DNA of 53,934 nucleotides from Deltaproteobacteria bacterium (lineage in GTDB: Bacteria; Desulfobacterota; Desulfomonilia; UBA1062). Shown here in pieces: positions 4,601-53,922 of the stretch. Below the pieces are notes generated by a model. The model was given only the letters and a program-made list of their open reading frames with translations. It was not told where the DNA came from and made no database searches. The stretch covers positions 1 through 53,934 of the forward strand of contig JAKPDW010000047.1 in the NCBI GenBank assembly GCA_029552245.1, given 5' to 3'. The position numbers and the translations under genes were made by a program. Numbering within the stretch: the stretch's first letter is position 1; the number at the start of each line of letters is the position of its first letter.

Positions 4601-4872
4601 CCGCACCCCTTGTCGGCGAGCAGGTCCACGAGGTACTTGAAGAACTCGAGGTGCCCGCCCTGGTAGGAGCTGACCGCCACCGCGTGGGCCCCTTCCTGGA
4701 TCGCCGCGTTCACGATCTCGAGCGCCGAACGGTTGTGACCCAGGTGTACGACCTCCGCGCCGGCGTCCTGGAGGATGCGGCGCATGATGTTGATGGATGC
4801 GTCGTGGCCGTCGAACAGCGCCGTGGCGGTCACGAAACGGAGAGGTTCCCTCGTCTTCGATCCCTTCTTCAT
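1621..4872 (-). CDS. icmF: Fused isobutyryl-CoA mutase-type acyl-CoA mutase (IcmF)
   Basis: This is an adenosylcobalamin-dependent acyl-CoA mutase that interconverts branched and linear acyl-CoAs (isobutyryl/n-butyryl-CoA in characterised IcmF). The 1083 residues have the IcmF order. A B12-binding domain comes first (about 10-145, with DGHDASIN at 21-28 supplying the cobalt-ligating His23). A MeaI/ArgK-like G-protein chaperone domain follows (P-loop TGTGGSGKSS ending about 211, VETSGIGQGD near 295-304, NKFE at 343-346). The substrate-binding TIM barrel fills the C-terminal half (TAGVFPFKR, AGEGSPERTNRRFHYL, HIQTSGRSL). The VFPFKR segment resembles IcmF rather than methylmalonyl-CoA mutase, but exact acyl specificity cannot be read by eye. 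The ATG follows a modest GGGTGGGG sequence. It stands alone on its strand with cobO downstream. Confidence 0.93.
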   Translation of the reverse strand: MKKGSKTREPLRFVTATALFDGHDASINIMRRILQDAGAEVVHLGHNRSALEIVNAAIQEGAHAVAVSSYQGGHLEFFKYLVDLLADKGCGYVKVFGGGGGVIVPHEIRELEEYGVAKIYSPEDGKAMGLAGMIRHMMGIASGVIIPDVPMDARLIESRDPVVLGRLVSMAERSRARGDGSFEPMRAFLSSMEKRSPVLGVTGTGGSGKSSFIDELIRRFLKHHPERTVAVLSVDPTRSRSGGALLGDRIRMNSIEDNRVFMRSMATRRSSHELSDAIEDAIASVRAAGFNLVIVETSGIGQGDTAVARISDVSVYVMTAEFGAPSQLEKIDMLDLADVVIVNKFEQERSMDALRHVRKQIQRNRGLFHEPLEAMPAFGTVASRYDDPGMERAFARIVNTMVDKGLADWGRLEETVDEHEEAPGGIVPSSRRQYLAEVARAVRSYHETTLETAEKIRTLAAYEKIAERNPDEKTLSSLKKGMAELRRQIPSSERALVETWPEKAARYRSKTFSYAVRDKKIQVQLSRESLAGLMIPKVALPSFKDKGDLYTWLRKENVPGAFPFTAGVFPFKRNWEDPKRQFAGEGSPERTNRRFHYLCRNDDAKRLSTAFDSVTLYGEDPQERPDIFGKVGESGVSVCTLDDMKKLYAGFDLCSPDTSVSMTINGPAPIMTAMFFNTAIDQQVERFEKERGRKPGPEEREEIVARVLRTVRGTVQADILKEDQGQNTCIFSTEFALKMMGDIQEYFIEHAVENFYSVSISGYHIAEAGANPITQLAFTLANAFTYVEYYLSRGMKVDDFAKNFSFFFSSGMDPEYSVLGRVARRIWAIAMRDVYGADESSQRLKYHIQTSGRSLHSMEIQFNDIRTTLQALTALNDNCNSLHTNAYDEAITTPTEESVRRAMAIQMIILREFGMSMNENPLQGSFFMEWLTDAVEDAVLREFDRLSERGGVLGAMEMQYQRGKIQDESLHYEHLKHSGALPIIGVNTFENPDAHEQAGGAVGGCCIPLTRASFEEKRAQLDNCRKFQKRHARKASAALMRLKKTALEGGNIFAELMDTVRVASLGQITQALYEVGGRYRRNM

Positions 4873-13846: not shown

Positions 13847-16800
13847 TCAGTCCACCCTCTTCAGCCAGTAGTACCTGTTGAGGCCCACGGGATCTCCGGT
13901 TTTTATGGGTTGGGTCCCCTCTTCCGTGGAGACCAACACGTACGTCCCCGCCTTCGTGACGATGACCACCGGCTCGGAAGGGATGCCCGAGCCGACATCC
14001 TTGTACCTGTCCTCCTTCGTGAGTTTCGCGGCGTTGCCGTCGAACGTGGCGAACACGGCCTCACCCGTCCTGTAGTCGACGGCGTAGATGCGGGCGATGC
14101 CCCCGCCGGTCGTTCCGCACGGGTCCTCCTCGGTGGAGGGACGGCCGGGCGTGTAGGTCGTGAAGTACACCACGCCCTTGTACACCACAGGAGAAGAGAC
14201 CGCCTTCTCGCCGGGGCGCTCGAGGTCGAAGAACCACCCGTTGCCCGTGTTGGCGAGTTGGTACCTCAATGTCATCTTCTGTTCCTCGGACAGGGTCGAG
14301 GGACTCGACACGGTACCCTGCAGCTCGTCGGCGCTCACGTCCGAGAGATCGCCGTCTGTGAAGGGAGAGTCGTTGTTCCAGGTGGAAGGGAAGGTATTTC
14401 TGATGGCATAGATCCTGTTGTACCCGCCGTAGCCGCTGCCGGTCGGATCCGAGGGGTGTTCCCTGTCGCCGCTGGCGATGTAGACCCAGTCGCCCCACGT
14501 CTCCTGGACGATCGCCGGGGCGTACATGAATTTCCTGAGCCTGGAAGTGCCGCCCATGGAGTTCGACCTGAAGAGCAGCCTGCGCGTCCATGTGCCGTCG
14601 TTGACGCTACCCAGGTTCTGGTGTGCGTCGTCGAAGAGGAACAGGTCGCCCCCCACCGACGGCGCGTATATGACGTCGGTACACCCGTCGTCGTCGTTGT
14701 CGTAGGCCATCAGGTCCACCATGGAGTAACGCATCTGCGGGAAATTCTTGTGGTTGAAGTTCAGGCTGCTCACGAGGGCGCCGCTGGCCGCACCCACCGC
14801 GAAGACCGCCCTCCCCTTCGAGTCCGAGCCGCCCGGGTCGTCCCCGTCCTGGTTCGTGTCGTAGCCCCCGGTAAGGAGCAGGACATCCTGCCTGTTGGAC
14901 TCGGCCGGCCCGGTTTTTATGGTCGCGAAGACGGGCGTGCACCACGACTGCCCGAGCTTCTCGTCGTCCGGGTTGCTTCCGAGTATGTCCTTCGCGATCC
15001 TCGCCACGAGCGTCGGGGTGACGTTGTCATCAGAAGCGTTCAACCTCAGGATGAAGTACTGGTTGTCGAGCTCGCCCCCGGTCTGGAGATCCTTGCCGCC
15101 CCTCCTCAGGCCGAAGGCCAGGTAGCGGGACCCTCCGCTCTTGTACAGGACCGGGGATCCATCCACGAAGTAATCGTGGTACGTGTCCCCGAGCGTACCG
15201 GCCGACGTCATGTTGTCAGAGGGCAGATACTTGAGGTTCTTCAGGAGATCGCCGGGGACATACGCCCATGCCTCCCTCACCTCGTCGTCCAGGAGCGACG
15301 GTGTTCCCCTGTCGCTGTCGATGAAGCAGTGGAGGAAGCCGTCGTTGGCACCCACGAAGATCACGTTCCTGTTCCTGTCCCTGTCGTAGAGTATGGTCGG
15401 CTGGGAGTGAATGATGTCCCCCAGGATCCAGTCCCTCTTCCACACGTCATCCCCGGTCTTCGGGTGGAACTTTCCCTGCCCCTTCACGAAGTCCAGAAGC
15501 TCGTCGCGCTCAGCATCGGTCGTGACCCCCAGGTGCGAGGGCAGGACGTTCGTGCTGTTGAGATCGACGAGCGCCAGGCTGCTCCCCAGGTTGGTCTTGA
15601 ACACGCGTGAAGACTGGTCGATGAGTTTTTGTCCCGCCCCGCCCGCCTCGACATCCATACCTTCCTTCTCTCCGGATCCCAGGTCGCACCAGGCCGAGTG
15701 CGCCGATTCGAGGACCGCGCCTGTGCTGCTGGCCGCAGCATTGCCGTACTTGTCCAGGATCTCACCGGTGTCGCTCAGGCCGAACTTCTTGAGGTTGCCC
15801 TTCCACAGGCCCGGGTGTTCGCTGTCGGGCGAGAAGAGCCCGAGATAGATGGCGTTGTCCGCGTACGTCCTGTTCATCCTGTTCACGGGCACCACGGGCG
15901 AGACGAACTGGGTGTTGCGCTCGAGGATGTTCGCTATGATCGACACGAAGATGTCCTCGAGGTTCAGGCTGCCCGTGGTGGTGAAGTACTTGCCGTTGCC
16001 GTGGGTCTTGTCCGCAGTCTCGCTCAAAAGCTTGTGGTCGATGGCAAAGCCGATCGTGTAGATCTCGATGTTCTGCTTCTCGAACCCCTGCTCGTTGAAG
16101 GACATGCCGGCCTGGTCCGGTATGTCCCCCAGGAGGTCCTCGTCGTGGAGGAACTTGGCCACGTCGTCGAGGTAGTCGCTCCCGTAGTCAGCGTAGGCGA
16201 TGAGGGCGCCGGTGGAGGACACCCAGTGATACTCGTCGTGGATCGCGGAGTCTTGGTCATAGTCACCTATGACCTTGCCGTTGAGGTACGTGGTCGCCCA
16301 GAGCTTGCTGTTGCGGTCCTGCGTGGACTCGCCGTCGGTCATGATGATGATGTAGTTCTTCTGGCAGCGGTACTGGATCGCCGGGTCATAGGCGGTCGCG
16401 TAGTCCACGCCCGAGTTGAACCACGACTGTTTCCGTGCATAGTAGAGGCCGGCCTCGGCGAGGGTCTCGGCCAGGGGCGTCCACGTCGTCGGGCTCAAGG
16501 CCCTGATCTGGGCGATCAGGGCCTCCTTGGCCGTCGAACTCTCTCTCGTTGCGATCGGCGCAAGGATGCGGCCGCCCTCGTTGTTGTTGAAGATCATGAC
16601 ACCGAAGCGGACGCCCTCGGTGGTATGGATGATGTTCGCAATGGTGTCCTTGGCGATGTCGATCTTCCTCCTGTACTCGACCGTGCCCGTCTGGAGGTAG
16701 TTCAGGTAATTCCCCGTCCTCAGGGTCCAGCTCGTCGTCACCGGAGTACACCGGTACGGGGCATTGTTGTTAATGTAGCCCGACCAGGTGCCCTTCGTGT

Positions 16801-17146
16801 TCAACGCCACGCGCGTGGCCTCGCAATTGATCTCGCTCTCGTCCACGTAGTAGTTGCTCCCGATGTTCACCAGGGAGACCCAGTCGCGGTAGGTCGTCCT
16901 GAACCGGTAGACCCTGTCCCTTCGATACGGACCGGAATACACGGTCGACGGGTCGTATGGCGTACTGTTGTGGATCACCTCCACCGTCTCGTCCATACTG
17001 CCGGAATTGTCGAAGATGATGAGCACGTTGGGCGGTATGTTGACGACCCCCCCGAAGAGTTCCGTGTCGTCGGCTCGAGCCTGCGTAGAGAGCAAAACGC
17101 TCGCTGCCGCGATGAAAAGGATGGCGAATGTCTTTGTGTTCCTCAT
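13847..17146 (-). CDS. pilY1: Type IV pilus tip/assembly protein PilY1
   Basis: PilY1 is a large exported protein that works with minor pilins to prime type IV pilus assembly and act as tip adhesin or mechanosensor. The 1099-residue product has a signal peptide (about 1-25), an N-terminal von Willebrand A-like region with the MIDAS motif DNSGSM at 46-51, and a C-terminal beta-propeller (GANDGFLHCFIDSDRG, TDVIYAPSVGGDLFLFDD). DNDDDGCTD and NQDGDDPGGSD look like calcium-binding loops. GAGGTGA precedes the ATG. It follows four minor-pilin-like genes, the classic arrangement, in which PilV/W/X form a complex with PilY1. Confidence 0.92.
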   Translation of the reverse strand: MRNTKTFAILFIAAASVLLSTQARADDTELFGGVVNIPPNVLIIFDNSGSMDETVEVIHNSTPYDPSTVYSGPYRRDRVYRFRTTYRDWVSLVNIGSNYYVDESEINCEATRVALNTKGTWSGYINNNAPYRCTPVTTSWTLRTGNYLNYLQTGTVEYRRKIDIAKDTIANIIHTTEGVRFGVMIFNNNEGGRILAPIATRESSTAKEALIAQIRALSPTTWTPLAETLAEAGLYYARKQSWFNSGVDYATAYDPAIQYRCQKNYIIIMTDGESTQDRNSKLWATTYLNGKVIGDYDQDSAIHDEYHWVSSTGALIAYADYGSDYLDDVAKFLHDEDLLGDIPDQAGMSFNEQGFEKQNIEIYTIGFAIDHKLLSETADKTHGNGKYFTTTGSLNLEDIFVSIIANILERNTQFVSPVVPVNRMNRTYADNAIYLGLFSPDSEHPGLWKGNLKKFGLSDTGEILDKYGNAAASSTGAVLESAHSAWCDLGSGEKEGMDVEAGGAGQKLIDQSSRVFKTNLGSSLALVDLNSTNVLPSHLGVTTDAERDELLDFVKGQGKFHPKTGDDVWKRDWILGDIIHSQPTILYDRDRNRNVIFVGANDGFLHCFIDSDRGTPSLLDDEVREAWAYVPGDLLKNLKYLPSDNMTSAGTLGDTYHDYFVDGSPVLYKSGGSRYLAFGLRRGGKDLQTGGELDNQYFILRLNASDDNVTPTLVARIAKDILGSNPDDEKLGQSWCTPVFATIKTGPAESNRQDVLLLTGGYDTNQDGDDPGGSDSKGRAVFAVGAASGALVSSLNFNHKNFPQMRYSMVDLMAYDNDDDGCTDVIYAPSVGGDLFLFDDAHQNLGSVNDGTWTRRLLFRSNSMGGTSRLRKFMYAPAIVQETWGDWVYIASGDREHPSDPTGSGYGGYNRIYAIRNTFPSTWNNDSPFTDGDLSDVSADELQGTVSSPSTLSEEQKMTLRYQLANTGNGWFFDLERPGEKAVSSPVVYKGVVYFTTYTPGRPSTEEDPCGTTGGGIARIYAVDYRTGEAVFATFDGNAAKLTKEDRYKDVGSGIPSEPVVIVTKAGTYVLVSTEEGTQPIKTGDPVGLNRYYWLKRVD

Positions 17147-26842: not shown

Positions 26843-27151
26843 ATGGAAGTCACGACGAGGATTGCCGACGACGTCACCTACGTAAAGGTCACCGGCGCGG
26901 TGGACACCCCCGCCGCGGAAGTCCTCCGGATGGAACTCAACAAGGTGGCGGCGCAGAAGCCGAAGAGGGTGATCATGGATCTCTCCATGGTCCCGACCAT
27001 GGGATCGTCGGGAATCGGCAAGATTCTCATGTTCTACAAGAACCTCGACGCCGCCAGATCGAAGTTCGAGATCAAGGGCATACACGACAACCTCATCAGC
27101 ATCTTCAAGGCCGTCAAGCTCGACAAGCTCTTCCCCATCTCGCAGAAATGA
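26843..27151 (+). CDS. STAS-domain anti-sigma-factor antagonist-like protein
   Basis: A 102-residue single STAS domain: VTYVKVTGAVDTPAAEVLRMEL, then VIMDLSMVPTMGSSGIGKILMFYK, where the Ser of GSSGIG is at the position phosphorylated in SpoIIAA/RsbV. I start at the ATG at 26843, which has GGAGGAG just upstream, rather than an in-frame ATG 29 codons earlier with no ribosome site. It is the first gene of the chemotaxis operon. The operon's last gene contains both an RsbW-like kinase and a PP2C phosphatase domain, the enzymes expected to act on it. Confidence 0.85.
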   Translation: MEVTTRIADDVTYVKVTGAVDTPAAEVLRMELNKVAAQKPKRVIMDLSMVPTMGSSGIGKILMFYKNLDAARSKFEIKGIHDNLISIFKAVKLDKLFPISQK

Positions 27152-27170
27152 AGAGGATGCCAAGATCGAG

Positions 27171-27461
27171 GTGAGACTGGACGAGAACGGGTTCATCTCT
27201 TTCAAAGGGTGCCTCGTCGCCTCCTGCATAGAACAGGCGCACTCGGCGCTCGAGAGCATCCTCGACGAGTCGCCGCAGACGATTGTCCTCGATCTTGCGG
27301 ACGTCGAGGAGATAGACATCTCGGGGCTGCAACTGCTCGTATCCATCAGGAAGACCTTCTCCGGGGAAGGCTCCGTGCGCCTGAGCGCCGTGAGCCCGGC
27401 GGTCAAGGAGGCCTTGGAGATCTCCGGTTTCGAGCCGGCGTTGAAGGAAACGGCGCCATGA
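27171..27461 (+). CDS. Second STAS-domain protein (chemotaxis-associated)
   Basis: A 96-residue STAS domain with IVLDLADVEEIDISGLQLLVSIRKTF: DISGLQLL is the conserved phospho-acceptor loop. It resembles the small STAS proteins placed ahead of cheA in several delta- and gammaproteobacterial chemotaxis operons. The start is a GTG 19 bases after the previous stop, without a strong ribosome site. It ends in an ATGA overlap with cheY. Confidence 0.82.
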   Translation: MRLDENGFISFKGCLVASCIEQAHSALESILDESPQTIVLDLADVEEIDISGLQLLVSIRKTFSGEGSVRLSAVSPAVKEALEISGFEPALKETAP

Positions 27462-27838
27462 CCAAGAAGAAGATCCTCGTCGTGGACGACTCGGCGACCC
27501 TCAGGGCCTCGGTGGCCTATACCCTCAAGGCGGCGGGGTTCGAGACCATACAGGCTGTCAACGGGGCGGACGGGCTCGAGAAGCTCCAGCATGCCCATGC
27601 AAGCGGCGAGGCGATCGGCATGATCATAAGCGACATCAACATGCCGATCATGGACGGGATCACCTTCATACGCGAGGTAAAGAAGACGCCCTTCAAGTTC
27701 CTGCCGATACTCGTGCTCACCACCGAGTCGCAGGAAGACATGAAACTCAAGGGGAAACAGGCGGGTGCTTCGGGCTGGCTCGTCAAGCCCTTCAAGCCGG
27801 ACCAGCTCGTATACGTGACCAAGAAATTCATGAGGTAG
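27458..27838 (+). CDS. cheY: CheY-type chemotaxis response regulator
   Basis: A 126-residue stand-alone receiver: KKILVVDDSATLRASV supplies the acidic pair, MIISDINMPIMDG the phosphorylated Asp, VLTTES the Thr switch and WLVKPFKPDQL the invariant Lys. It starts inside the stop of the STAS gene and lies nine bases before cheA, so it is very likely the output regulator of this CheA. Confidence 0.93.
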   Translation: MTKKKILVVDDSATLRASVAYTLKAAGFETIQAVNGADGLEKLQHAHASGEAIGMIISDINMPIMDGITFIREVKKTPFKFLPILVLTTESQEDMKLKGKQAGASGWLVKPFKPDQLVYVTKKFMR

Positions 27839-27847
27839 GTCAAGACC

Positions 27848-29944
27848 ATGGATGAACTCGTGAAGATATTCCTCGAAGAGAGCGAGGACGAGATCAGGGA
27901 GCTCGAGACCGGGCTCATGAGGCTGGAGGAGGATAGCGGCGACGAGGACACCATAAACCGGGTCTTCCGCGCGGCCCACACGATCAAGGGCTCTGCCGGT
28001 CTTGTCGGTTTCGAGGAAGTGAGCAACTACACCCATACCATCGAGAGCATCCTCGACAGGATACGGAAGAAGGAACTGACGGTCACCAAGGCCCTCGTCT
28101 CCTCGCTCCTCGGCGGGGTGGACTTCTTGAAGAGGATGATCTCGGCCGAGGTCGAGGGCTCGCCCGTCGACTCGAACGAGGTGGAAGAGGCCCTCAAGCA
28201 CATCAAGCGCTTCCTCGGCATGAAGGGTGTTTCCAGGGATGCGCAAGGCAAGGCGGTCGAGGCGACCGGGAAGACGCCTGAAAAGGTATACCTGATCACC
28301 ATGAAGTTCAGGCCTGACATCCTGTCCACCGGGCAAGACCCCCTCATGCTCATCAGGGAACTCATGGACATGGGCGAGATCATCGAGTCCCGGGCCTTCA
28401 CCGAGGACATCCCCGGTTTCTACGAGCTCCAGCCGACCACGTGCTACACGTCCTGGGAGATCGTGCTGAAGACATCCAGGCCGATCTCCGAGATCAACAA
28501 CGTCTTCATCTTCGTCATGGACGAAAACGAGATATCGATCCACGACATCTCCTCCCAGTACAAGAACGGGGTGGACCTCTCCCTGGCCGAGAAACCCATC
28601 GGCGAGATCCTGGTCGAGAAAGGGATCGTGAGGGAGACGGACGTGATCGAGGCACTGAGGGAACACAAGACCACGGGCCAGGCACTTGTCGAGAAGGGCA
28701 AGGTTTCGAGGGAAACAGTGGAGAAGATGGCCCTCGCCCAGTCGGAAAGCCGGAAAGTGGCGAAGGCGACGACCATCAGGGTGGACACGGACAAGCTCGA
28801 CAGGCTCATGAACCTGGTCGGCGAGATGGTGATCTCCGTGGCCCGCGTCTCCCAGTGCGCCAACGAGATAACCGACGCCTCGGTGTCGAAATCCCTCACC
28901 GCCGCGACCGCATCGCTGGAGCGCATCTCCAGGGATCTCCAGGAACAGGTCATGAGGGTTCGCATGGTGCCGGTCGAGGGGACGTTCAACAGGTTCAAGA
29001 GGGTGGTCAGGGACATGTCCTTCGAGCTCGGCAAGAAGATCGAGATCAAGATGTCGGGCACGGAGACCGAGCTCGACAAGAACGTGATCGAGCAGATCAG
29101 CGACCCCCTCAAGCACATGATCCGCAACTCGATCGACCACGGCATCGAGTCTCCCGAGGGAAGGAGAAGGAAGGGCAAGCCCGAGACGGGCACCATCTGG
29201 CTCAAGGCCTACCAGCGCGAGGGGAACATCTACATAGAGATATCCGACGACGGCAGGGGCATCGACAAGGCGAAGGTGCTCGCAAAGGCCGTAGAGAAGG
29301 GCATCGCGGAGCCGGGCAGGTCGTATACCGACAAGGAGATCTACGAGATGCTCTTCGCTCCGGGGCTCTCCACCGCAGACAGGGTGAGCGAGCTTTCCGG
29401 CAGGGGGGTCGGGATGGACGTGGTGAAGAGGAACATCGAGGAGCTGAGGGGAACCGTCGAGATCTCTTCCGAGGAGAACAAGGGCTCCACCTTCAAGGTC
29501 AAGCTGCCTCTCACGCTCGCCATCATCGACGGCATGATGATCAGGGTCGGCAGCGAGATCCTCACCATTCCCCTGGCCATGATAGACAAGTCGGTCAGGC
29601 CGTCAAGGACGGAGATAAAGACCGTCGAGGGCAAGGGCGAGCTCGTGGACATCAGGGGTGACTACCTGCCGCTGGTGCGCCTCTACGATCTCTTCAGGAT
29701 CCCGTCCGAGAAGACGGATCCCACAGAGGCGCTCGTCGTGGTGCTTCACGGCGCAGAGAACCGCTTCGGCATCCTCGTGGACGACGTGCTCGGCCAGACA
29801 CAGGCGGTGATCAAGAGCATCGACAAGAACTTCAAGAAGATCGAGGGCACTTCCGGGGCCACCATCCTCGGGAACGGGAGGGTGTCCCTGATCCTGGACG
29901 TCCACGGCATCGAGAAGATGGCCTTCGTGGGGTCGGCCATGTGA
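27848..29944 (+). CDS. cheA: Chemotaxis histidine kinase CheA
   Basis: CheA autophosphorylates under receptor control and passes phosphate to CheY and CheB. The 698 residues run: an Hpt domain (AAHTIKGSAGLVGF, His44); a P2-like region (about 140-235); an unusual stretch about 245-300 with a repeated GEILVEKG/GQALVEKG pattern resembling the N-domain of MshE-type ATPases; the dimerisation helix (LDRLMNLVGEMVI); the ATPase domain (HMIRNSIDHGIE, DDGRGID, GRGVGMDVV); and a C-terminal CheW-like domain. All catalytic boxes are intact. Confidence 0.95.
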   Translation: MDELVKIFLEESEDEIRELETGLMRLEEDSGDEDTINRVFRAAHTIKGSAGLVGFEEVSNYTHTIESILDRIRKKELTVTKALVSSLLGGVDFLKRMISAEVEGSPVDSNEVEEALKHIKRFLGMKGVSRDAQGKAVEATGKTPEKVYLITMKFRPDILSTGQDPLMLIRELMDMGEIIESRAFTEDIPGFYELQPTTCYTSWEIVLKTSRPISEINNVFIFVMDENEISIHDISSQYKNGVDLSLAEKPIGEILVEKGIVRETDVIEALREHKTTGQALVEKGKVSRETVEKMALAQSESRKVAKATTIRVDTDKLDRLMNLVGEMVISVARVSQCANEITDASVSKSLTAATASLERISRDLQEQVMRVRMVPVEGTFNRFKRVVRDMSFELGKKIEIKMSGTETELDKNVIEQISDPLKHMIRNSIDHGIESPEGRRRKGKPETGTIWLKAYQREGNIYIEISDDGRGIDKAKVLAKAVEKGIAEPGRSYTDKEIYEMLFAPGLSTADRVSELSGRGVGMDVVKRNIEELRGTVEISSEENKGSTFKVKLPLTLAIIDGMMIRVGSEILTIPLAMIDKSVRPSRTEIKTVEGKGELVDIRGDYLPLVRLYDLFRIPSEKTDPTEALVVVLHGAENRFGILVDDVLGQTQAVIKSIDKNFKKIEGTSGATILGNGRVSLILDVHGIEKMAFVGSAM

Positions 29945-30008
29945 GAGGGTTCGAGGCGGCATACAAACACCCTGGCATATACCACAATTCGTAAAAGGAG
30001 ATAACGTC

Positions 30009-31673
30009 ATGGCGATGAGGTGGAAACTCAGAGAAAGGCTCACGGCGCTCGTACTCTGTACGGGGCTCATACCGCTCATCGTGGTCATCGTCTACACCGG
30101 CATCAGGATCAGCGGTCACCTCAAGCATCAGGCCTCTGACTACCTGAAGGTCAAGGTGGATGCGTTCGCGAGGATGGCCGAGGTCAGGAGCGCCTCGATC
30201 GAGGGCAACCTCGACATCATCAAGGAACAGCTCATGAAATCCCTCAAGAATGAGCTCATAAACGAGGCGTCGAAGGAAAGGTACTTCGAGACGGGCTACC
30301 TCACCATCTTCACCTCGGACGGCACGTGCGTCTACCACCCGAAGGCCGAGTTCCGCAACAACAAGACCCTGTACAACGAGAACGACTTCGTGAAGAAGGC
30401 CTTGAGCAAGAAACAGGGTTCTTTCCTCTACACCTTCGGCGGACAGGACAAGATCAGCTACCTGGCATACATCAAGCCCCTCGACTGGGTGATCTGGGCA
30501 GCGGTGCCTGCGAGCGAGGCCCTGAGCGAGGTGAGGATGCTCCAGGTCGAGCTCTTCGCCTTCCTCATTGTGACAGCGATCGTGGTGGCGGTCCTGGGAA
30601 TCCTCTTCTCGAGCAGGATAGCCTCGAGGGCACGCCAGATCTCAAACTCGATGATGGACATAGCCCAGGGCGAGGCGGACCTCTCCAAACGGCTCCCGGT
30701 CCTGTCCACCGACGAGATCGGGGAGATCGCCTCCTGGTTCAACACGTTCGTCGAGAACCTCGAGGAGGTGATCGGCAAGGTGAAGCAGGCGGCCATGCAC
30801 GTGGACACCGCGACCAGGGAGGTGGCATCCGGCGCGCAAGGGCTCTCCCAGGCGACCCAGGAGCAGGCCTCGGCCATCGAGGAGGTGGCGGCCACCATCG
30901 AGCAGATGACTTCCTCGATTAAGCACAACGCCGAGAACGCGAGCGACGGCAGGACGAAGGCCACGGAGATGGTACGCATGGCGAACGCGAGCGGTGAGGC
31001 GGCGCAGGAGCTCGTGAGGGGCATGAGCGAGATCTCGGAGGCATCGAAGAAGATCGGCGACATCATCGTCACGGTCAACGAGGTCGCGTTCCAGACGAAC
31101 CTCCTCGCCCTCAACGCCGCTGTGGAGGCGGCCAGAGCCGGGGAACACGGCAAGGGGTTCGCCGTGGTCGCCGAGGAGGTGCGGGCGCTCGCACAGAGGT
31201 CGGCCGAGGCCGCGCGCGAGATCAAGGCCCTCATCGAGGACACGGTGAACAAGATCGCGGCCGGCGACACCATGGTCAAGAAGTCCGGCGAGTCCCTGGA
31301 GCAGATCATCAGGCACATCCAGGACCTCTCCCAGGTCATGGAGGAGATCGCGGCCGCATCCAGCGAACAGGCCAGCGGCGTCGACGAGCTCAACAGGGCG
31401 ATCTCCCAGATCGACACGACGACACAGCAGAACGCCTCCACGGTGGAGGAACTGGCGAGCACCTCGGACAACCTCAGCATGGAGGCCAAGGAACTCGCCG
31501 AGGTCGTGGCCAGGTTCAGGGTGTCGCGGGAGATCGAGTCCTCCTCGGCCAAGAAGGGGCCGTACCGCGCCAAGGCACCCCGAGCCCTCACGCAGAAACC
31601 GGTCAAGAAGGCGGCGACCAGGGAGCCCGAGCCTCCAGAGGCCGACTTCGAGGACGACTTCGAGGAATTCTGA
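30009..31673 (+). CDS. Methyl-accepting chemotaxis protein with periplasmic Cache-like sensor
   Basis: A 554-residue receptor: TM1 about 12-32, a periplasmic single-Cache-like domain to about 177 (YLTIFTSDGTCVYHP, FGGQDKISYLAYIKPLDWVIWAAVP), TM2 about 178-200, a HAMP domain (ASRARQISNSMMDIAQGEADLSKRLP), then the signalling helix bundle with the hairpin tip EVAFQTNLLALNAAVEAARAGEHGKGFAVVAEEVRALAQRS. The tail ends in a very acidic segment with terminal EEF, possibly a docking site for CheR/CheB/CheD. AAAAGGAG precedes the ATG. The ligand is unknown. Confidence 0.94.
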   Translation: MAMRWKLRERLTALVLCTGLIPLIVVIVYTGIRISGHLKHQASDYLKVKVDAFARMAEVRSASIEGNLDIIKEQLMKSLKNELINEASKERYFETGYLTIFTSDGTCVYHPKAEFRNNKTLYNENDFVKKALSKKQGSFLYTFGGQDKISYLAYIKPLDWVIWAAVPASEALSEVRMLQVELFAFLIVTAIVVAVLGILFSSRIASRARQISNSMMDIAQGEADLSKRLPVLSTDEIGEIASWFNTFVENLEEVIGKVKQAAMHVDTATREVASGAQGLSQATQEQASAIEEVAATIEQMTSSIKHNAENASDGRTKATEMVRMANASGEAAQELVRGMSEISEASKKIGDIIVTVNEVAFQTNLLALNAAVEAARAGEHGKGFAVVAEEVRALAQRSAEAAREIKALIEDTVNKIAAGDTMVKKSGESLEQIIRHIQDLSQVMEEIAAASSEQASGVDELNRAISQIDTTTQQNASTVEELASTSDNLSMEAKELAEVVARFRVSREIESSSAKKGPYRAKAPRALTQKPVKKAATREPEPPEADFEDDFEEF

Positions 31674-31688
31674 TACGGAGGCCTGCTG

Positions 31689-32171
31689 ATGGCGAGAGCG
31701 GTCAACACAGAGACGGCCAAGAACCTGTCCAACCAGTTCGTGACCTTCCAGCTTGGATCGGAGACCTACGGGATCCCCATCCTCAAGCTCAACGAGATCA
31801 TCGCCTACCAGAACTGCACCCAGATCCCCAACGTGCCGAAGTTCATCAAGGGGGTGCTCAACCTGAGAGGGGTGGTGGTCCCTGTCTTCGACCTCAGGGA
31901 ACGGTTCGGCATGGAGACCAAGGAGTACGACCAGTTCACGGTCATCATGGTGCTCGACGTATCGGGCAGGACCATGGGGCTCGTGGTGGACGCGGTGAGT
32001 GACGTCGTCACCCTGCACGACGACGACATCAAGCCGCGCCCGCACTTCTCGACGGGGATCAGCACCGAGTTCATCAAGGGCATGGGGATCAAGGACGGAT
32101 CATTCATCATCATACTGGACACCGACAGGTTGCTCTCCGACGAGGAGTTGAACATGGTCGACGGGGTATGA
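31689..32171 (+). CDS. cheW: CheW coupling protein
   Basis: A 160-residue adaptor linking CheA to receptors. FVTFQLGSETYGIPILKLNEII, IKGVLNLRGVVVPVFDLRERFG and GLVVDAVSDVVTL are the standard CheW segments. It follows the receptor gene by 15 bases and overlaps cheR by four. Confidence 0.95.
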   Translation: MARAVNTETAKNLSNQFVTFQLGSETYGIPILKLNEIIAYQNCTQIPNVPKFIKGVLNLRGVVVPVFDLRERFGMETKEYDQFTVIMVLDVSGRTMGLVVDAVSDVVTLHDDDIKPRPHFSTGISTEFIKGMGIKDGSFIIILDTDRLLSDEELNMVDGV

Positions 32172-33013
32172 CGCCTGACCTGTGCACACGGACATACACC
32201 ATCACGGACAGGGAATTCGAGCTCTTCCGGGACCTCATCTTCCGGCAGACCGGGATCCATCTCTCGGACCGCAAGAAGAACCTGGTCGTGGCCCGTCTCT
32301 CGAAGCGCCTCAGGGCGCTCGACCTGGAGAACTTCACCGAGTACTACCGGTTTCTCACAGAACGGCCGGACGCATCGAGCGAACTGGTCAACCTGGTCAA
32401 CAGGGTGACCACGAACAAGACTGACTTCTTCAGGGAGAACCACCATTTCGACTTCCTGAGGGGCGATGTCCTTCCCGAGATCCTCGAGAACGCCAGCAGG
32501 GGGGGACCGAAAAAACTGAGGATCTGGTCCGCCGGGTGCTCGACAGGCGAGGAACCCTACAGCATCGCCATGACGGTGCACGATTTCTTCTCGAACGAGC
32601 GGGGTTGGGACATCAAGATCCTCGCCACCGACCTGGACACCGAGGTGCTCGGTTTCGCCTACCGCGGCGTGTACCCGAGCCAGAGGGTTGCGCCCGTGCC
32701 CGGGCCTTTCTTGACCAAATACTTCGAGAGGACCGCCGAGGGGTACTCGGTCAAGAGGCAGATCAGGGACATGGTGATCTTCAGGAGGCTGGACCTGATG
32801 GACGCGATGTTCCCCCTCAAGAGCCAGGTGGACGTCATATTCTGCAGGAACGTCATGATCTACTTCAACGACGAGACGAAGGCCTCTCTCGTGGGGAAGT
32901 TCCACAGGCACCTGAGGAACGACGGGTATCTCTTCATCGGCCACTCCGAGTCGCTCATGCATATGAAGGACCTGTTCACGTTCGTCAGGCACACGGTGTA
33001 CAGGAAGGTGTAG
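32168..33013 (+). CDS. cheR: Chemoreceptor methyltransferase CheR
   Basis: An S-adenosylmethionine-dependent enzyme that methylates glutamates of chemoreceptors. The 281-residue product has the N-terminal helical domain (FRQTGIHLSDRKKNLVVARLSKRLRAL), VTTNKTDFFRE, the SAM motif IWSAGCSTGEEPYSIAM, ILATDLDTEVL and DVIFCRNVMIYF. Complete length. It overlaps cheW (ATGA) and lies two bases before cheD. Confidence 0.96.
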   Translation: MTPDLCTRTYTITDREFELFRDLIFRQTGIHLSDRKKNLVVARLSKRLRALDLENFTEYYRFLTERPDASSELVNLVNRVTTNKTDFFRENHHFDFLRGDVLPEILENASRGGPKKLRIWSAGCSTGEEPYSIAMTVHDFFSNERGWDIKILATDLDTEVLGFAYRGVYPSQRVAPVPGPFLTKYFERTAEGYSVKRQIRDMVIFRRLDLMDAMFPLKSQVDVIFCRNVMIYFNDETKASLVGKFHRHLRNDGYLFIGHSESLMHMKDLFTFVRHTVYRKV

Positions 33014-33015
33014 AC

Positions 33016-33612
33016 ATGTACAGGCGATACAGCGACAAGTTCAAGCGCCCCATGGTGATCATCTACCCCGGCGAGTTCCACGTGAGCTCCAAGGAGATCG
33101 TCGCCACGGTGCTCGGTTCCTGTATTTCTGTGTGCATCAGGGACCCCGAGGCGGGCATTGGCGGCATGAACCACTTCATGCTGCCCGGAGATGTCCGGTC
33201 CGAGGAGATGTTCCTATCCGAATCCACCAAGTATGGGATGTTCGCCATGGAGCAGCTCATCAAGGCGATCACGGACAAGGGCGGGAAGCAGAGGAACTTC
33301 CAGGCGAAGGTCTTCGGCGGGGGGCACGTGCTGAACTTCAGGAAGTCGGACGGGAACGTGCCCGAGTCGAACATCGAGTTCGTGAGGGCCTTCTTGAAGA
33401 TGGAGGGCATACCCATCGTGAGCGAGGACGTGGGCGGCTATGCAGGCAGGAAGATCCTCTACTTCCCGGATACGGGAAGGGTCCTGCTCAAGAGACTGAA
33501 GTCGACCATCGACTCCAGGCTGATCGAGGCCGAGGAGGCATACAAGATCAGGCTCTTCGCGCAGAAAGACCACCTGGGGACCGAGGGCGAGAAAGAGCCG
33601 GGGAAAGAATGA
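33016..33612 (+). CDS. cheD: Chemoreceptor glutamine deamidase CheD
   Basis: CheD deamidates specific receptor glutamines and binds CheC-type phosphatases in some species. The 198-residue product carries VLGSCISVCIRDP with the catalytic Cys, GGMNHFMLP with the His, and KVFGGGHVL. AGGAAGG lies seven bases before the ATG. No cheC or cheX gene is in this operon. Confidence 0.95.
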   Translation: MYRRYSDKFKRPMVIIYPGEFHVSSKEIVATVLGSCISVCIRDPEAGIGGMNHFMLPGDVRSEEMFLSESTKYGMFAMEQLIKAITDKGGKQRNFQAKVFGGGHVLNFRKSDGNVPESNIEFVRAFLKMEGIPIVSEDVGGYAGRKILYFPDTGRVLLKRLKSTIDSRLIEAEEAYKIRLFAQKDHLGTEGEKEPGKE

Positions 33613-33619
33613 GGCTGCC

Positions 33620-34708
33620 ATGGAACGTGTAAGAGTTCTCATCGTGGACGATTCGGCCCTCGTAAGGAAGGTCCTCAAGGAGATCCTCGAGTCGGACCCC
33701 GGCATAGAGGTGGCGGGGACCGCCCCGGACCCCCTCATCGCGGTGCGCAAGATCAAGGAACTCAAGCCCGACGTGCTCACCCTCGACATCGAGATGCCCA
33801 AGATGGACGGGCTCACGTTCCTCTCCCGCCTCATGCGATCGACGCCTATGCCGGTGGTCATGTTCTCTTCCCTGACCGAGGCAGGGGCCAACGCCACCAT
33901 GAAGGCGCTGTCCCTGGGCGCCATCGACTTCCTGGCCAAGCCCAAGGTAAAGCTCAGCGAAGGCATCGAGGACCTGAGGTACGAGTTGTGCACCAAGGTC
34001 CGTACCGCGGCCCACGCGAAGATCAAGAAGGCGATCTCTCCGCCCAACCTCTCCGTCCCTCCCAAGCTGAGCGTGGATGCGGTGATCAAGCCCGAACGGT
34101 CGCCGAGGATCAAGGAAGGCGCCAAGGTCTTGGTGATAGGGGCATCCACGGGTGGGACCGTCGCGCTGGAGCAGATCCTCAGCAAGATGCCGGCGGACGG
34201 CCCGGCCACCCTCATCGTGCAGCACATGCCACCCGTGTTCACCTCTTCCTTCGCCAAGCGGGTGGACTCCCTCTCGGCGATGAAGGTCATCGAGGCCCGC
34301 GACAACGACGAGCTCAGGCAGGGCCAGGCGCTGATAGCGCCGGGCGGCAAACACATGATCGTGCACAAGGGGCAGAGGGGATACTTCGTGAGGGTGATGG
34401 ACGGCCCGCCGGTCAACAGGCACATCCCGTCGGTGGACGTTCTCTTCAGGTCCGCCGCGAACGTGCTCGGGCCCAATGCGGTCGGGGTCATCCTCACCGG
34501 CATGGGTGACGACGGCGCCAGGGGGCTCAAGGAAATGAGGGACGCGGGCGCCTTCACCATCGCGCAGGACGAGGAGAGCTGCGTGGTGTTCGGCATGCCC
34601 AAGGTTGCCATCGAGATGGGTGGTGCGTGCAGGGTCCTGCCCCTCTCCGGCATCGCGAGCTTCGTCATGGACATGCTATCGCCTGAAGGAACGAACGACA
34701 GGACGTAA
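33620..34708 (+). CDS. cheB: Chemoreceptor methylesterase CheB
   Basis: CheB removes receptor methyl groups when phosphorylated by CheA. The 362-residue product has an N-terminal receiver (Asp56 in LTLDIEMPKMDG; Lys in FLAKPK) and a C-terminal esterase domain with the catalytic triad positions in IGASTGG (Ser176), IVQHMP and GMGDDGARGL. Both halves look intact. It follows cheD by seven bases. Confidence 0.96.
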   Translation: MERVRVLIVDDSALVRKVLKEILESDPGIEVAGTAPDPLIAVRKIKELKPDVLTLDIEMPKMDGLTFLSRLMRSTPMPVVMFSSLTEAGANATMKALSLGAIDFLAKPKVKLSEGIEDLRYELCTKVRTAAHAKIKKAISPPNLSVPPKLSVDAVIKPERSPRIKEGAKVLVIGASTGGTVALEQILSKMPADGPATLIVQHMPPVFTSSFAKRVDSLSAMKVIEARDNDELRQGQALIAPGGKHMIVHKGQRGYFVRVMDGPPVNRHIPSVDVLFRSAANVLGPNAVGVILTGMGDDGARGLKEMRDAGAFTIAQDEESCVVFGMPKVAIEMGGACRVLPLSGIASFVMDMLSPEGTNDRT

Positions 34709-34728
34709 CGCCGCACCGGGACACGCAC

Positions 34729-36990
34729 ATGGGGGAGATCAGGAACATTCTCATCATCGACCCTGACAAGAGATCGGGTGATCTCTCCAGAAAACTCAGG
34801 CGCAAGGGTTTCCAGGCCGCGTGGGCCAAGAACGTCGAAGATGCGCTCTCCCTCGTCATGGATGGCAAGCCCGACCTCGTGCTGTTCGGTTTGGACGGCA
34901 TACCCGAGCGCTCCCTTGCCGCCATAGGCGAGATCGGCGAGCTCTCGCCCGGCACCGTGGTGGTGGCGGCGGCAGCCTCAGCAGCCGAGGCCGGCACCGC
35001 CGTCGAGTGCATGCGGAGAGGGACGATGGACCTCCTCTTCAAGCCCGTGACCCCGGGCGCGCTCCTCGAATGCATACGGCGCATAGAGAGACGACTGAAC
35101 AACCTGTGCATCGGGATGACGCCGAACACCGGGTGCGTCGCCAGGGAACACAAGACCCTCGTCTTCCCCAACGAGATCGAGAACCTCCCCTACCTGATCA
35201 ACCAGGCGGTGCTCAACGCCCCTGTCGTGTGCCGGGACGTCGAGACGCTGAAGATGGCGCTCTCCGAGATCCTCATCAACGCCATAGAGCACGGCAACCT
35301 CGAGATCACCATGGAGGAGAAGGCCTCTGCGGTCAAGAAGGGGGCGTTCGAGAAGCTCGTGCACAGGAGGCTTGCCGACCCGAGGCTTTCCTCGAGGAGG
35401 GTCACCCTCGAGGTCTTCATGGACGAGGACAGGCTGGAATACGTCGTGACGGACGAGGGGAGAGGGTTCGACTACCGAAAGGAGGTCGACCCCGACCCCA
35501 ACGCCCACATAGGGAGCGGGCTCGGGATCCAGATAGCGAGAGCCTTCTTCCACGAGGTCAGGTACGAGGGTGAAGGCAACAGGGTCCATCTCGTCTACTA
35601 CCGGGACCCCCGCCTGCATCGAGGCGGCCGGGAAACGGGCCCGGCGTCCTTGACGATGAATGCGCATCGACCTGTGGGCGGAAAGAGCGGGGCGGCCGGG
35701 GCGGGTGACCTCGGCGACGGGGTGTTCCTTACGGGCACCATGAACATAGACGTGATCGTCCAGCTTGCCGAGTCCTTCCCCATGGGGCTGCTCCTCGTCA
35801 CCGACAGCGAGCGCATAGCCATGTGGAACCAGAAGGCCGAGCAGATCACCTCCATCACGTCCTCAAGCCTCGTAGGCGCGCATGTGTCCGAGGCCCCCGC
35901 CTTTGTCCGACACCTCCTCGATCAATCGAGCTCCCACGCCGACCTCGTCCTCGACGAGTTCGACACCCGCATCTACGAGAAGACCATGCATACCGTCGAA
36001 CCGAGGGAGGGCAGGAGATTCTCGGTCGTGATCTTCTCCGACGTGACCTCGTCCCTACGGCAGAGGGAGGAGCTCGAGAGGCTCCTCATCGAGAGCGCGG
36101 AGACCCGGGACCTCATGGAGGAACAGGCGGCGAGGCTCGCGATCACGCTGGCGGAGATGGACGAGAAGAACGAGATCATTCGCCAGCAGAACCAGCGGAT
36201 GATCGAGGAGCTCGAGATGGCCGCGAGGCTCCAGAAGAGCCTGCTCCCCGACACCTTCGAGAACCTCAACGGCGTGAGCTTCTCCTGCAAGTACATCCCG
36301 TCCATCCACATAGGTGGAGACCTCTACGACGTGGTTGACCTGGGCGGCGGACAGTCTGGTTTCATCATCGCCGACGTGTCCGGGCACGGGGTGGCGGCGG
36401 CCCTCGTCTCGGCCATGTTCAAGATGAGCTTCCACGCACTCGCATCCACCGTGGCGAGCCCCACGATCCTCATGCACATGCTCAACAAGGAGCTCAGGCC
36501 GGTCCTCGAGGAGGACTACATCACCGCCTTCTTCGTGATAACCGACCGCTACAACAAGGGCATCACGTACACGAACGCGGGGCACCCCACCCCTCTCCTC
36601 TTCAGGCGCGCGACGGGAATGATCGAGGAACTCGACACGGACGGCTTCTTCCTCGGGTCTTTCGACGACGGCGGGTACGAGGAGAAGACGGTGAGCGACA
36701 TCGAGAAGGGCGATGCGCTGCTCATGTATACCGACTGCATCCTCGAGGCGGAGAACCCCGAGGGAGAGCAGTACGGCAAGGAGAGGCTCAAGGCGTGCTT
36801 CGCGCGCTGCATGGAGTCCCTGCGGGGAAACGAGGTCATCGAGGCCATCGAGGCCGATGTGCGCGCCTTCGCCGCCAAAGACAACCTCGACGACGACCTC
36901 ACCGTGTTGCTCCTCGAGTTCTGGGAAGAGGTAGGCCCGGGCGAGGAGATGCCCGCGGACGGGGATACCGGCGGGTTCGTGGAGTTCTGA
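34729..36990 (+). CDS. Multidomain protein: pseudo-receiver, RsbW-like kinase, PAS and PP2C phosphatase
   Basis: The 753 residues contain four modules. Residues 1-125 form a receiver fold whose phospho-acceptor position reads LVLFGLDG, apparently Gly instead of Asp, and whose acidic pair is altered (IIDPDK). Residues about 140-300 are a GHKL ATPase of RsbW/SpoIIAB type (ALSEILINAIEHGN, VVTDEGRGFDYR, GSGLGIQIA). A PAS-like domain (about 345-445) and a coiled coil follow. The end (about 520-745) is a PP2C/SpoIIE phosphatase (IHIGGDLYDVV, IADVSGHGVAAALVS, NAGHPTPLLF, DDLTVLLL). One polypeptide thus holds both an antagonist kinase and phosphatase, with STAS partners at the start of the operon. 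Confidence 0.9.
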   Translation: MGEIRNILIIDPDKRSGDLSRKLRRKGFQAAWAKNVEDALSLVMDGKPDLVLFGLDGIPERSLAAIGEIGELSPGTVVVAAAASAAEAGTAVECMRRGTMDLLFKPVTPGALLECIRRIERRLNNLCIGMTPNTGCVAREHKTLVFPNEIENLPYLINQAVLNAPVVCRDVETLKMALSEILINAIEHGNLEITMEEKASAVKKGAFEKLVHRRLADPRLSSRRVTLEVFMDEDRLEYVVTDEGRGFDYRKEVDPDPNAHIGSGLGIQIARAFFHEVRYEGEGNRVHLVYYRDPRLHRGGRETGPASLTMNAHRPVGGKSGAAGAGDLGDGVFLTGTMNIDVIVQLAESFPMGLLLVTDSERIAMWNQKAEQITSITSSSLVGAHVSEAPAFVRHLLDQSSSHADLVLDEFDTRIYEKTMHTVEPREGRRFSVVIFSDVTSSLRQREELERLLIESAETRDLMEEQAARLAITLAEMDEKNEIIRQQNQRMIEELEMAARLQKSLLPDTFENLNGVSFSCKYIPSIHIGGDLYDVVDLGGGQSGFIIADVSGHGVAAALVSAMFKMSFHALASTVASPTILMHMLNKELRPVLEEDYITAFFVITDRYNKGITYTNAGHPTPLLFRRATGMIEELDTDGFFLGSFDDGGYEEKTVSDIEKGDALLMYTDCILEAENPEGEQYGKERLKACFARCMESLRGNEVIEAIEADVRAFAAKDNLDDDLTVLLLEFWEEVGPGEEMPADGDTGGFVEF

Positions 36991-52443: not shown

Positions 52444-53922
52444 TCACGTGCCCTTCTTCGGTGCGTCTCTCCGGGATGTGCGTTCCACCTCCACCGTCAC
52501 GCGGACGGTCGGTTGCTGTTGGGCCTTGAATCTCACCCGGGACGTGGACGGTATCACCTTCACGGTGTAGGTGTGGCTGGAGGTGATGCCCGAGACATCG
52601 ATCGGCTCGGTGATCACCGAGATCCTGCTCGCGGTTATGGCGAACGGCGCAAGCACCGAGACGAACTCCGGCTCCACGGTGACCTGCCTGATCTCGTATC
52701 CCTCTTCGGGCCTGCCGACCATGTCCGGCGTCACCTTCACATCGCGTGGGAAGAGCCTGTGCGCGGTGATGATGATCCTGTCCGGCCTGACCTTGAGGAG
52801 CGTCAGGTTCGACGGCACGTTGACCATGTCCGAGGTGATGACCACCACCTGCCTGCCCTCTTCGAGCGAAGAGAGGTCGATCGATATCTTGAGGCTCGAC
52901 GGGTCGAACAGCCTGAAGGCCTGCGTCGACCCCATGAGCGTGACCGTGGCGTCCGTGACCCGGGACTCCTCTATCTCCCACTCCGGCGAGATCTTGCGGT
53001 ACTCGATGGGGACGATGTAGTCCCGCTGGATGGATTCACGCTGGTAGCCGAACACGAACCAGAGCCCCACAGCCAGTACGAGGGCGAGCCCCTTCTCGAG
53101 GGCGTTTTTCCCGAGTCCGCCCTTGGCGTGTTTCCCGCCGTCGGTAAAGGTCTTCTCGAAGAACTGCTCGAGGACCGAGTTGAGCTCTATGGCGTTCTTG
53201 AGGGTCACGATCTCGGCGTTGCGCACGACCGAGATGGTGCCCTTTTCCTCCGATATGACGATCGCGAGGGCGTCGCACCGCTCTGACAACCCCAGTGCCG
53301 CCGTGTGGCGGAGGCCGAAGTTGGCGAGCTTCTCCGTGTTGGTCGACAGCGGGAGGTGGCAGCCGAACTTGAAGGCACGCCCGTTGCGGACCACGAGTGC
53401 ACCGTCGTGCCCCTGGGAATGCGGATCGAATATGCTCATGACCAAGGGCGAGGTGAGCACGCCGTTCAGGGTGTATCCGCCGGTGATCTGCCTGTCTATG
53501 GGGTCCTCCCCCTCGATCACGATCAACGCCCCTATGCGCCTCGAGGCGAGCTCCGCCGAGCTCTCGACGATGGCGCTCACCGCCCCGTCCACGCCTTCGG
53601 CGGACTTTCTCCTGTGCCTGGCGAGGTTCCTGAGGGTGGCCAGGCGCTCGAAGAACCTCCTGATGTCTTCCTGGAAGATCACGACCAGAGCGATGATGAT
53701 CACCGTGAAGAAGCTCTGGAGCACGATCGTGGTGAGGTAGAGGTGGAAGAGCCGTGCGCCGATGTAGACCACGCCGAGCAGTATCATCCCCACGAGCACG
53801 AGCTTGGACGTGGCGTGCTTGAACCAGACGATGGCGAGGTACAGGAGGAAGGAGATGATCGCGATGTCGAAAAAGTCCTGGATCCTGAAGCCGGCGAGAA
53901 ACGTGAAGAACGTATCGCTCAT
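52444..53922 (-). CDS. Diadenylate cyclase (CdaA-type) fused to YbbR/CdaR-like domain
   Basis: It should make cyclic di-AMP at the membrane. The 492 residues start with three membrane helices (about 15-85), then a DAC domain with SIFDPHSQGHDGALVV (DGA at 173-175), HLPLSTN and GLRHTAALGLSERCDALAIVISEE. The family's RHR motif reads RHT at 205-207. After a fourth membrane helix (about 276-292) comes a YbbR-like part (298-480) with beta-repeat segments such as VPIEYRKISPEWEIEE and PRDVKVTPDMVGRPEEGYEI. In Firmicutes CdaA and its regulator CdaR/YbbR are separate neighbours; here they are one polypeptide. GAAGG precedes the ATG. Confidence 0.9.
   Translation of the reverse strand: MSDTFFTFLAGFRIQDFFDIAIISFLLYLAIVWFKHATSKLVLVGMILLGVVYIGARLFHLYLTTIVLQSFFTVIIIALVVIFQEDIRRFFERLATLRNLARHRRKSAEGVDGAVSAIVESSAELASRRIGALIVIEGEDPIDRQITGGYTLNGVLTSPLVMSIFDPHSQGHDGALVVRNGRAFKFGCHLPLSTNTEKLANFGLRHTAALGLSERCDALAIVISEEKGTISVVRNAEIVTLKNAIELNSVLEQFFEKTFTDGGKHAKGGLGKNALEKGLALVLAVGLWFVFGYQRESIQRDYIVPIEYRKISPEWEIEESRVTDATVTLMGSTQAFRLFDPSSLKISIDLSSLEEGRQVVVITSDMVNVPSNLTLLKVRPDRIIITAHRLFPRDVKVTPDMVGRPEEGYEIRQVTVEPEFVSVLAPFAITASRISVITEPIDVSGITSSHTYTVKVIPSTSRVRFKAQQQPTVRVTVEVERTSRRDAPKKGT

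Follow-up and report, generated by a model that had tools for sequence, protein, structure and literature searches.

A ten-gene chemosensory operon lies on the plus strand at positions 26843-36990 of the window (the whole stretch of DNA analyzed here, 53,934 nucleotides from a Deltaproteobacteria bacterium), and its last gene encodes a protein of 753 amino acids (aa) in which a predicted serine kinase and a PP2C phosphatase share one chain with a receiver domain that lacks its phosphorylation site and with a C-terminal tail of the type found on chemoreceptors. This combination of a dead receiver and a receptor-type tail on a partner-switch enzyme is what looks new. As a whole, the sequence evidence leans modestly toward an F7-type operon in which the first STAS protein would act as the switch, the receiver is dead and the enzyme would be reached via docking of its C-terminal pentapeptide. 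Put forward more tentatively is the scenario behind it, namely that a receptor pentapeptide was transplanted onto the kinase-phosphatase as the receiver died, so that the receptor array would control a serine switch by docking and not by aspartate phosphotransfer.

The operon and its class

The ten genes are co-directional with intergenic gaps of -4 to 64 base pairs (open reading frame calls), and are ordered STAS1-STAS2-CheY-CheA-MCP-CheW-CheR-CheD-CheB, followed by the gene for the 753-aa pseudo-receiver/RsbW-type ATPase/PAS/PP2C protein:

26843..27151, +, STAS1, predicted phosphorylatable antagonist, 102 aa (Pfam STAS 6e-16)
27171..27461, +, STAS2, predicted non-phosphorylatable CheS-like STAS protein (Pfam STAS 5e-13)
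27458..27838, +, CheY, active site intact (Response_reg 5.5e-24)
27848..29944, +, CheA with Hpt, dimerisation, HATPase and CheW domains (domain matches) and an MshEN-like segment at residues ~247-301
30009..31673, +, chemoreceptor (methyl-accepting chemotaxis protein, MCP) with Cache-type sensor, HAMP and a 36H-like signaling domain of Tsr length
31656..31670, +, C-terminal pentapeptide of the receptor, DFEEF
31689..32171, +, CheW (CheW 1e-42)
32168..33013, +, CheR, with a beta-subdomain loop 4 residues below Salmonella CheR length
33016..33612, +, CheD (homology and conserved position)
33620..34708, +, CheB with REC and methylesterase domains (domain matches)
34729..36990, +, fused kinase-phosphatase, 753 aa

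The named relatives are metagenome-assembled genomes of Deltaproteobacteria and Syntrophaceae. In a family sample of 24 species, 21 of which have a match, the gene order is the same throughout, hence the arrangement is not due to chance; MCP, CheA, CheW, CheR, CheD, CheB and CheY are ~50-87% identical. The signaling part of the receptor can be aligned to Tsr without gaps across 225 residues, and its best NCBIfam similarity is to Vibrio Aer2, where the alignment reaches the last residue of the model at a score far under the whole-protein cut-off. A 36H-like receptor with a C-terminal pentapeptide and an F7-like gene order with a second antagonist and a serine phosphatase are the F7-type features present. 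From the receptor and the gene order, the operon is classified as F7-type (Aer2-like) with a partner-switch output, and this assignment carries the same modest preference as the overall explanation of which it is part.

A kinase-phosphatase with a dead receiver

Pfam identifies three domains in the 753-aa protein (Response_reg 3.5e-7, HATPase_c_2 3.9e-12 and SpoIIE 1.6e-41), while its PAS domain is a weak match (E 0.025) that reaches E 5e-4 in relatives and is modeled with high confidence. The predicted structure has a mean predicted local distance difference test (pLDDT) of 78.8 and a predicted template modeling score (pTM) of 0.39, so that the placement of the domains relative to each other is uninformative. 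The parts are as follows:

34729..35088, +, pseudo-receiver, residues 1-120 (receiver fold in the model; without acid pair or phospho-Asp)
35146..35604, +, RsbW/SpoIIAB-type Bergerat ATPase, predicted Ser kinase, residues 140-292 (HATPase_c_2; LvrC and RsbW matches)
35623..35742, +, disordered linker at the fusion joint, residues 299-338 (pLDDT < 50)
35740..36048, +, PAS domain, residues 338-440 (model fold; PAS matches in relatives)
36106..36243, +, helical linker, residues 460-505, of low to moderate confidence in the model
36253..36921, +, PP2C/SpoIIE phosphatase domain, residues 509-731 (SpoIIE; RssB, Rv1364c, SiaA and SpoIIE structures)
36973..36987, +, pentapeptide GFVEF at the C-terminal end of a disordered tail, residues 732-753 (pLDDT < 50 for 743-753)

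An earlier note, made from the sequence of the window, had described two STAS proteins at the start of the operon and a last protein combining an RsbW-like kinase, a PP2C phosphatase, PAS and a pseudo-receiver, and both descriptions are borne out by the Pfam matches and, for the last protein, by its predicted structure. The ATPase domain carries an N box (E180/N184), a G1 box (D242-E-G-x-G) and a G2 box (G-x-G-L-G), and the phosphatase domain has the metal-binding Asp motifs GGDLYD, ADVSGHG, YTD and DDD; both sets agree with those of relatives of solved structure. E180, N184 and D242, the catalytic residues of the kinase, are retained in 19/19 family and 5/5 other-family homologues. The best structural matches are Leptospira LvrC for the N-terminal half and RssB, Rv1364c, SpoIIE and SiaA for the C-terminal half. 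On these motifs, the 753-aa protein could in principle both add phosphate to and remove it from a small switch protein.

The receiver has Gly at the position of the phospho-Asp, and its acid pair is DP. Among 16 kinase-linked receivers of the family, none has acid pair, Asp, Thr/Ser and Lys all together; 14 have G, Y, S, F or N at the phospho-Asp position, and the two that keep the Asp (G011 and G012) are without the acid pair. Four REC-PP2C receivers from a deeper branch of the family have Glu at this position. Five loci in other families of the phylum have the same operon with separate REC-PP2C and REC-ATPase proteins, and in the receivers aligned from these loci the active site, phospho-Asp included, is intact apart from a single change in the acid pair and a single Lys left unaligned. 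These other-family homologues are response regulators open to direct phosphorylation by CheA in principle, while direct CheA input to the kinase-phosphatase has probably been lost in the family of the window. A dead receiver where the homologues in other families have intact ones looks new.

A receptor-type pentapeptide on the kinase-phosphatase

The kinase-phosphatase ends in -DTGGFVEF, and the receptor of the operon in -DFEEF. The GFVEF tail fits the receptor pentapeptide that binds CheR/CheB as defined in the literature and stands behind a flexible linker, on a protein that has no MCPsignal domain (Pfam) and hence is no chemoreceptor. The pattern x-Z-x-x-Z, in which Z is aromatic or His, is found at the C-terminus of 18/21 family phosphatases, and when they are aligned from their right-hand ends, conservation at the final five positions is 94, 100, 78, 94 and 100%, compared with mostly 22-56% in the preceding linker. 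FEEF is present at all 17 C-termini that were read among the operon MCPs of relatives, and one phosphatase (G013) itself ends in -EFEEF, like the receptors. Within the 3.27 Mb assembly that contains the window, which is covered by the genome-wide searches, F-x-E-F followed by a stop codon occurs only in the operon MCP and the kinase-phosphatase, a third match to the pattern having TGG in place of the stop. Composition would lead one to expect ~0.6 such protein ends (an estimate that assumes 3000 genes, and no formal test), so that two of them within one ten-gene operon, one being on the receptor, are unlikely to have arisen by chance.

Binding of the pentapeptide by CheR and CheB, and the preference of activated CheB for it, have been published for receptors (PMC7390727, PMC7698151, PMC8609364). 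In E. coli, it is the activated form of CheB that picks out pentapeptides (PMC8609364), and in Salmonella the pentapeptide binds to the beta-subdomain of CheR. In the window, cheB lies directly upstream of the kinase-phosphatase gene, and the receptor-like tag may be how the enzyme is wired to the receptor array. Such wiring would, to our knowledge, be the first use of the CheR/CheB tether outside receptors, and among the papers searched we found none that joins pentapeptide, CheR, CheB and PP2C, which is only weak evidence of absence. A receptor-type tail on a partner-switch enzyme looks new, when F7 phosphatases and CrsR are compared by their description and not by C-terminal sequence.

The second che operon of the same genome (L232 2103-4145, from G000:C58) has a receptor with another pentapeptide, -DFERY, and a CheR with a full-length beta-loop. 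Different pentapeptides may insulate the two che pathways of the genome from each other.

Two STAS proteins with different roles

The earlier note had named a missing phosphorylatable Ser in the STAS proteins as evidence against a partner switch, and the two proteins differ in this respect. Ser55 of STAS1 (27005-27007) aligns with Ser58 of SpoIIAA and is Ser in 8/8 family and 5/5 other-family homologues (13/13), within an invariant GS[SA]G motif; STAS1 also scores 54.4 bits against TIGR00377 (cut-off 53.45). STAS2 has Ile50 (27318-27320) at the same position, where relatives have I, T, M, A, L or S, and STAS2 was therefore rejected as a switch substrate. STAS1 occurs where the HATPase/PP2C pair occurs, while STAS2 is also encoded next to CheY-CheA in operons that have neither STAS1 nor PP2C; this co-occurrence, which is phylogenetic-profile evidence from few loci, groups STAS1 with the kinase and phosphatase, and STAS2 with CheA and CheY. 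STAS1 is thus the only plausible switch substrate of the two, and for STAS2 the role of a CheA accessory resembling CheS is the better reading. In S. meliloti and A. fabrum, CheS is a single-domain STAS protein encoded beside cheY-cheA (PMC12654446); it is part of a different chemosensory system, and what STAS2 shares with it is this position.

Fused and split kinase-phosphatases

A search for homologues with the same order next to cheA, as proposed in the earlier note, recovers the conserved operon across the family, with kinase and phosphatase on one chain in 6/24 species, namely all five of the genus of the window and G011. Ten family species encode them as two adjacent genes. A stand-alone ATPase is found beside a pseudo-REC-PAS-PP2C protein in G008, G009 and G013, and pseudo-REC-PAS-PP2C is also present in G015. 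The fusion joint is the disordered linker, at which the split relatives have the end of one gene and the start of the next, and the tree is compatible with one or two fusion events. On this evidence, the one-chain state is read as a local, recent fusion. Plasmid records returned partial PP2C matches only. At L053 2572-3944 (from G008:C49), a PAS-PP2C gene is split into two open reading frames, possibly by a frameshift or an assembly error.

The view that kinase and phosphatase are normally separate, and one chain unusual, could not be sustained, as CrsR, HsbR, SypE and Rv1364c are also one-chain proteins. Together with a REC-PP2C-HATPase protein of G003, they rule out that the one-chain state is novel in itself. 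The latter protein is encoded at L063 7902-10663 (from G003:C109), a second che locus of a species of the same genus, where this CrsR-like enzyme stands beside a REC-HATPase protein and both receivers are intact.

Proposed mechanism and alternatives

In the proposed mechanism, the state of the array would set the occupancy of CheB~P (or CheR), and the tail would bring the kinase-phosphatase to the array, let it be sensed there, or shift its balance, via a binder of receptor pentapeptides, either activated CheB or CheR. The ATPase domain would phosphorylate Ser55 of STAS1 and the PP2C domain would take the phosphate off, whereupon unphosphorylated STAS1 would bind, and thereby free or activate, its target; the simplest candidate is a sigma factor bound to the ATPase domain, with another STAS-binding effector as the alternative. 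Through the PAS domain and helix the phosphatase would receive another input, which could act on PP2C dimers in the way proposed for RsbP (PMC12143880); the helical linker is comparable to the coiled-coil linkers of RsbU and RsbP (PMC12143880). STAS2 would act on the CheA-CheY side in a CheS-like manner. If CheB~P reads the tail, CheA input would be restored without a receiver. The gene order, domains, motifs, conservation, fusion and tail are features of the sequences, from which the activities of the enzyme, STAS1 as its substrate, the partner of the tail and the target are inferred. The earlier note had suggested that receptor signaling is coupled to a STAS switch alongside CheA-CheY; a partner switch in a chemosensory operon is indeed well supported by motifs, synteny and precedents, but the receiver is dead and the pentapeptide suggests docking as the route.

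Several observations tell against docking through the tail and the switch it would serve. The phosphatases of G008, G009 and G015 have no tail, which hence is not indispensable, and x-Z-x-x-Z is loose by itself, with a chance of about 1% per protein. Family CheR is 4 residues shorter than Salmonella CheR in the peptide-binding beta-subdomain loop, and its loop is also shorter than in CheR of sister operons whose receptors likewise end in FEEF, which makes docking to CheR uncertain; CheR was thus not upheld as a sure partner of the tail. Pentapeptide binding by CheB has no known sequence signature (PMC7698151). With regard to the target, RpoS was not found in the genome, and two group-3-like sigma factors that were tested fall under the RpoS cut-off, so that the target of CrsR cannot simply be transferred and RpoS was dropped as the candidate suggested by this analogy.

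The same features could belong to an ordinary CrsR/CrsA-like switch in an F7 operon, with the pseudo-receiver as an interaction domain for CheA or CheY and a tail of unrelated role (stability, turnover or self-binding). Such a switch would have precedents in CrsR/CrsA and the F7 stage-1 clusters (PMC9855816, PMC7184735), a PAS domain and helical linker alone can regulate PP2C (PMC12143880), and three relatives manage with no such tail; we nevertheless consider it unlikely, given a tail that is far more conserved than its linker, of the same class as those of the operon receptors and one of only two such ends in the genome. That shared motif class, with cheR and cheB a few genes away, would also suit a tail acting in reverse, whereby enzyme and receptor would be competitors for CheR/CheB, receptor methylation would be adjusted as a result, and the STAS switch would have a secondary role. 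A decoy would have no need of the kinase catalytic motifs and the STAS1 Ser, which are conserved throughout, and this reversal is improbable.

It would likewise be surprising if both STAS proteins were CheS-like CheA accessories and the kinase-phosphatase acted on CheA, CheW or another protein: the STAS-cheY-cheA order does resemble that of cheS in S. meliloti and A. fabrum (PMC12654446) and STAS2 is without a conserved phosphoacceptor, yet the GS[SA]G site of STAS1 is invariant and STAS1 co-occurs with the kinase/phosphatase pair, while STAS2 is also found without the pair. A STAS1 switch reached through pentapeptide docking is the explanation preferred here. If true, it would give the pentapeptide a role in output beyond that in adaptation, with the array driving a partner switch by docking, and the comparison across the phylum suggests a rewiring, from relatives with live receivers and no tail to the family of the window with dead receivers and a receptor-type tail. 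In the field, the outputs of non-motility F7 arrays and the routes leading to them are an open question. Within the family, kinase and phosphatase occur both as separate proteins and fused.

Candidate outputs and genomic setting

The genome encodes RpoD and a FliA-like factor (both by inspection), RpoH-like factors and an ECF-type sigma factor, as well as flagellin and FlgM, and a sigma factor as the target of the switch is possible. Operons with STAS2 but without STAS1 and PP2C have, in those read further, a REC-GGDEF protein in the slot after cheB. Such diguanylate cyclases are encoded in other-family operons at L221 (4530-5447), L224 (16597-17514) and L226 (17103-18008), so that REC-GGDEF and kinase/phosphatase appear after cheB as two alternative outputs in one operon type. 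In the CheA of the window, residues ~247-301 (28586-28750) form an MshEN-like segment of the c-di-GMP-binding type ('PIGEILVEKG...TGQALVEKGK'), which scores 31 bits against an NCBIfam cut-off of 38 and is kept in most CheAs of the group. With the REC-GGDEF genes of the sister operons, it makes a c-di-GMP feedback conceivable.

The operon is flanked by a divergent rapZ on one side and a convergent radical SAM gene on the other. Elsewhere in the window, the minus strand encodes an IcmF-like protein of 1083 aa whose single chain joins a B12-binding domain to a MeaB GTPase and a methylmalonyl-CoA mutase (1621-4872), a PilY1-like protein of 1099 aa with a weak von Willebrand A match (13847-17146), and a single-chain fusion of a CdaA-like diadenylate cyclase (DAC) with a YbbR domain (52444-53922).

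Comparison with known systems

A partner switch inside such a chemosensory operon is an already known kind of module. In gammaproteobacteria (V. cholerae, M. alcaliphilum), the F7 stage-1 clusters include anti-sigma antagonists as well as a serine phosphatase, and their genes run in the order antagonist, cheY, cheA, two cheW, aer2, cheR, cheD, cheB, second receptor, second antagonist and serine phosphatase (PMC7184735). Antagonists, cheY, cheA, cheW, an Aer2-like 36H receptor with pentapeptide, cheR, cheD, cheB and serine phosphatase are common to both, whereas the operon described here has one cheW, no McpA-like receptor, a Cache-type sensor and both antagonists at its 5' end, and is found in a different phylum, with the kinase fused to the phosphatase and a pentapeptide on the latter.

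The F7-type Che1 locus of Shewanella carries CrsR and CrsA (PMC9855816, PMC6482189), and hence shares with the window a STAS antagonist and a one-chain kinase/PP2C phosphatase within an F7 che locus. CrsR has the order REC-PP2C-kinase and an active receiver, in contrast to pseudo-REC-kinase-PAS-PP2C with a dead receiver here. One-chain enzymes with kinase and phosphatase also control a STAS protein in HsbR/HsbA of P. aeruginosa (PMC6482189) and SypE/SypA of V. fischeri (PMC3610818). HsbR has the order REC-PP2C-kinase (PMC6482189), while SypE (kinase-REC-PP2C) resembles the 753-aa protein in its N-terminal kinase and C-terminal PP2C domain but has a central receiver (PMC3610818). Unlike the 753-aa protein, both HsbR and SypE have a receiver and no reported PAS domain. 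We know of no description of either pair as belonging to a che operon. Rv1364c likewise has kinase and phosphatase on one chain. LvrC of Leptospira (Rec-anti-sigma; PDB 9qih, PMC13269768) is the best match to the N-terminal half both in structure and in sequence, and differs in having a canonical receiver, which is phosphorylated by LvrB, and no phosphatase on its chain (PMC13269768).

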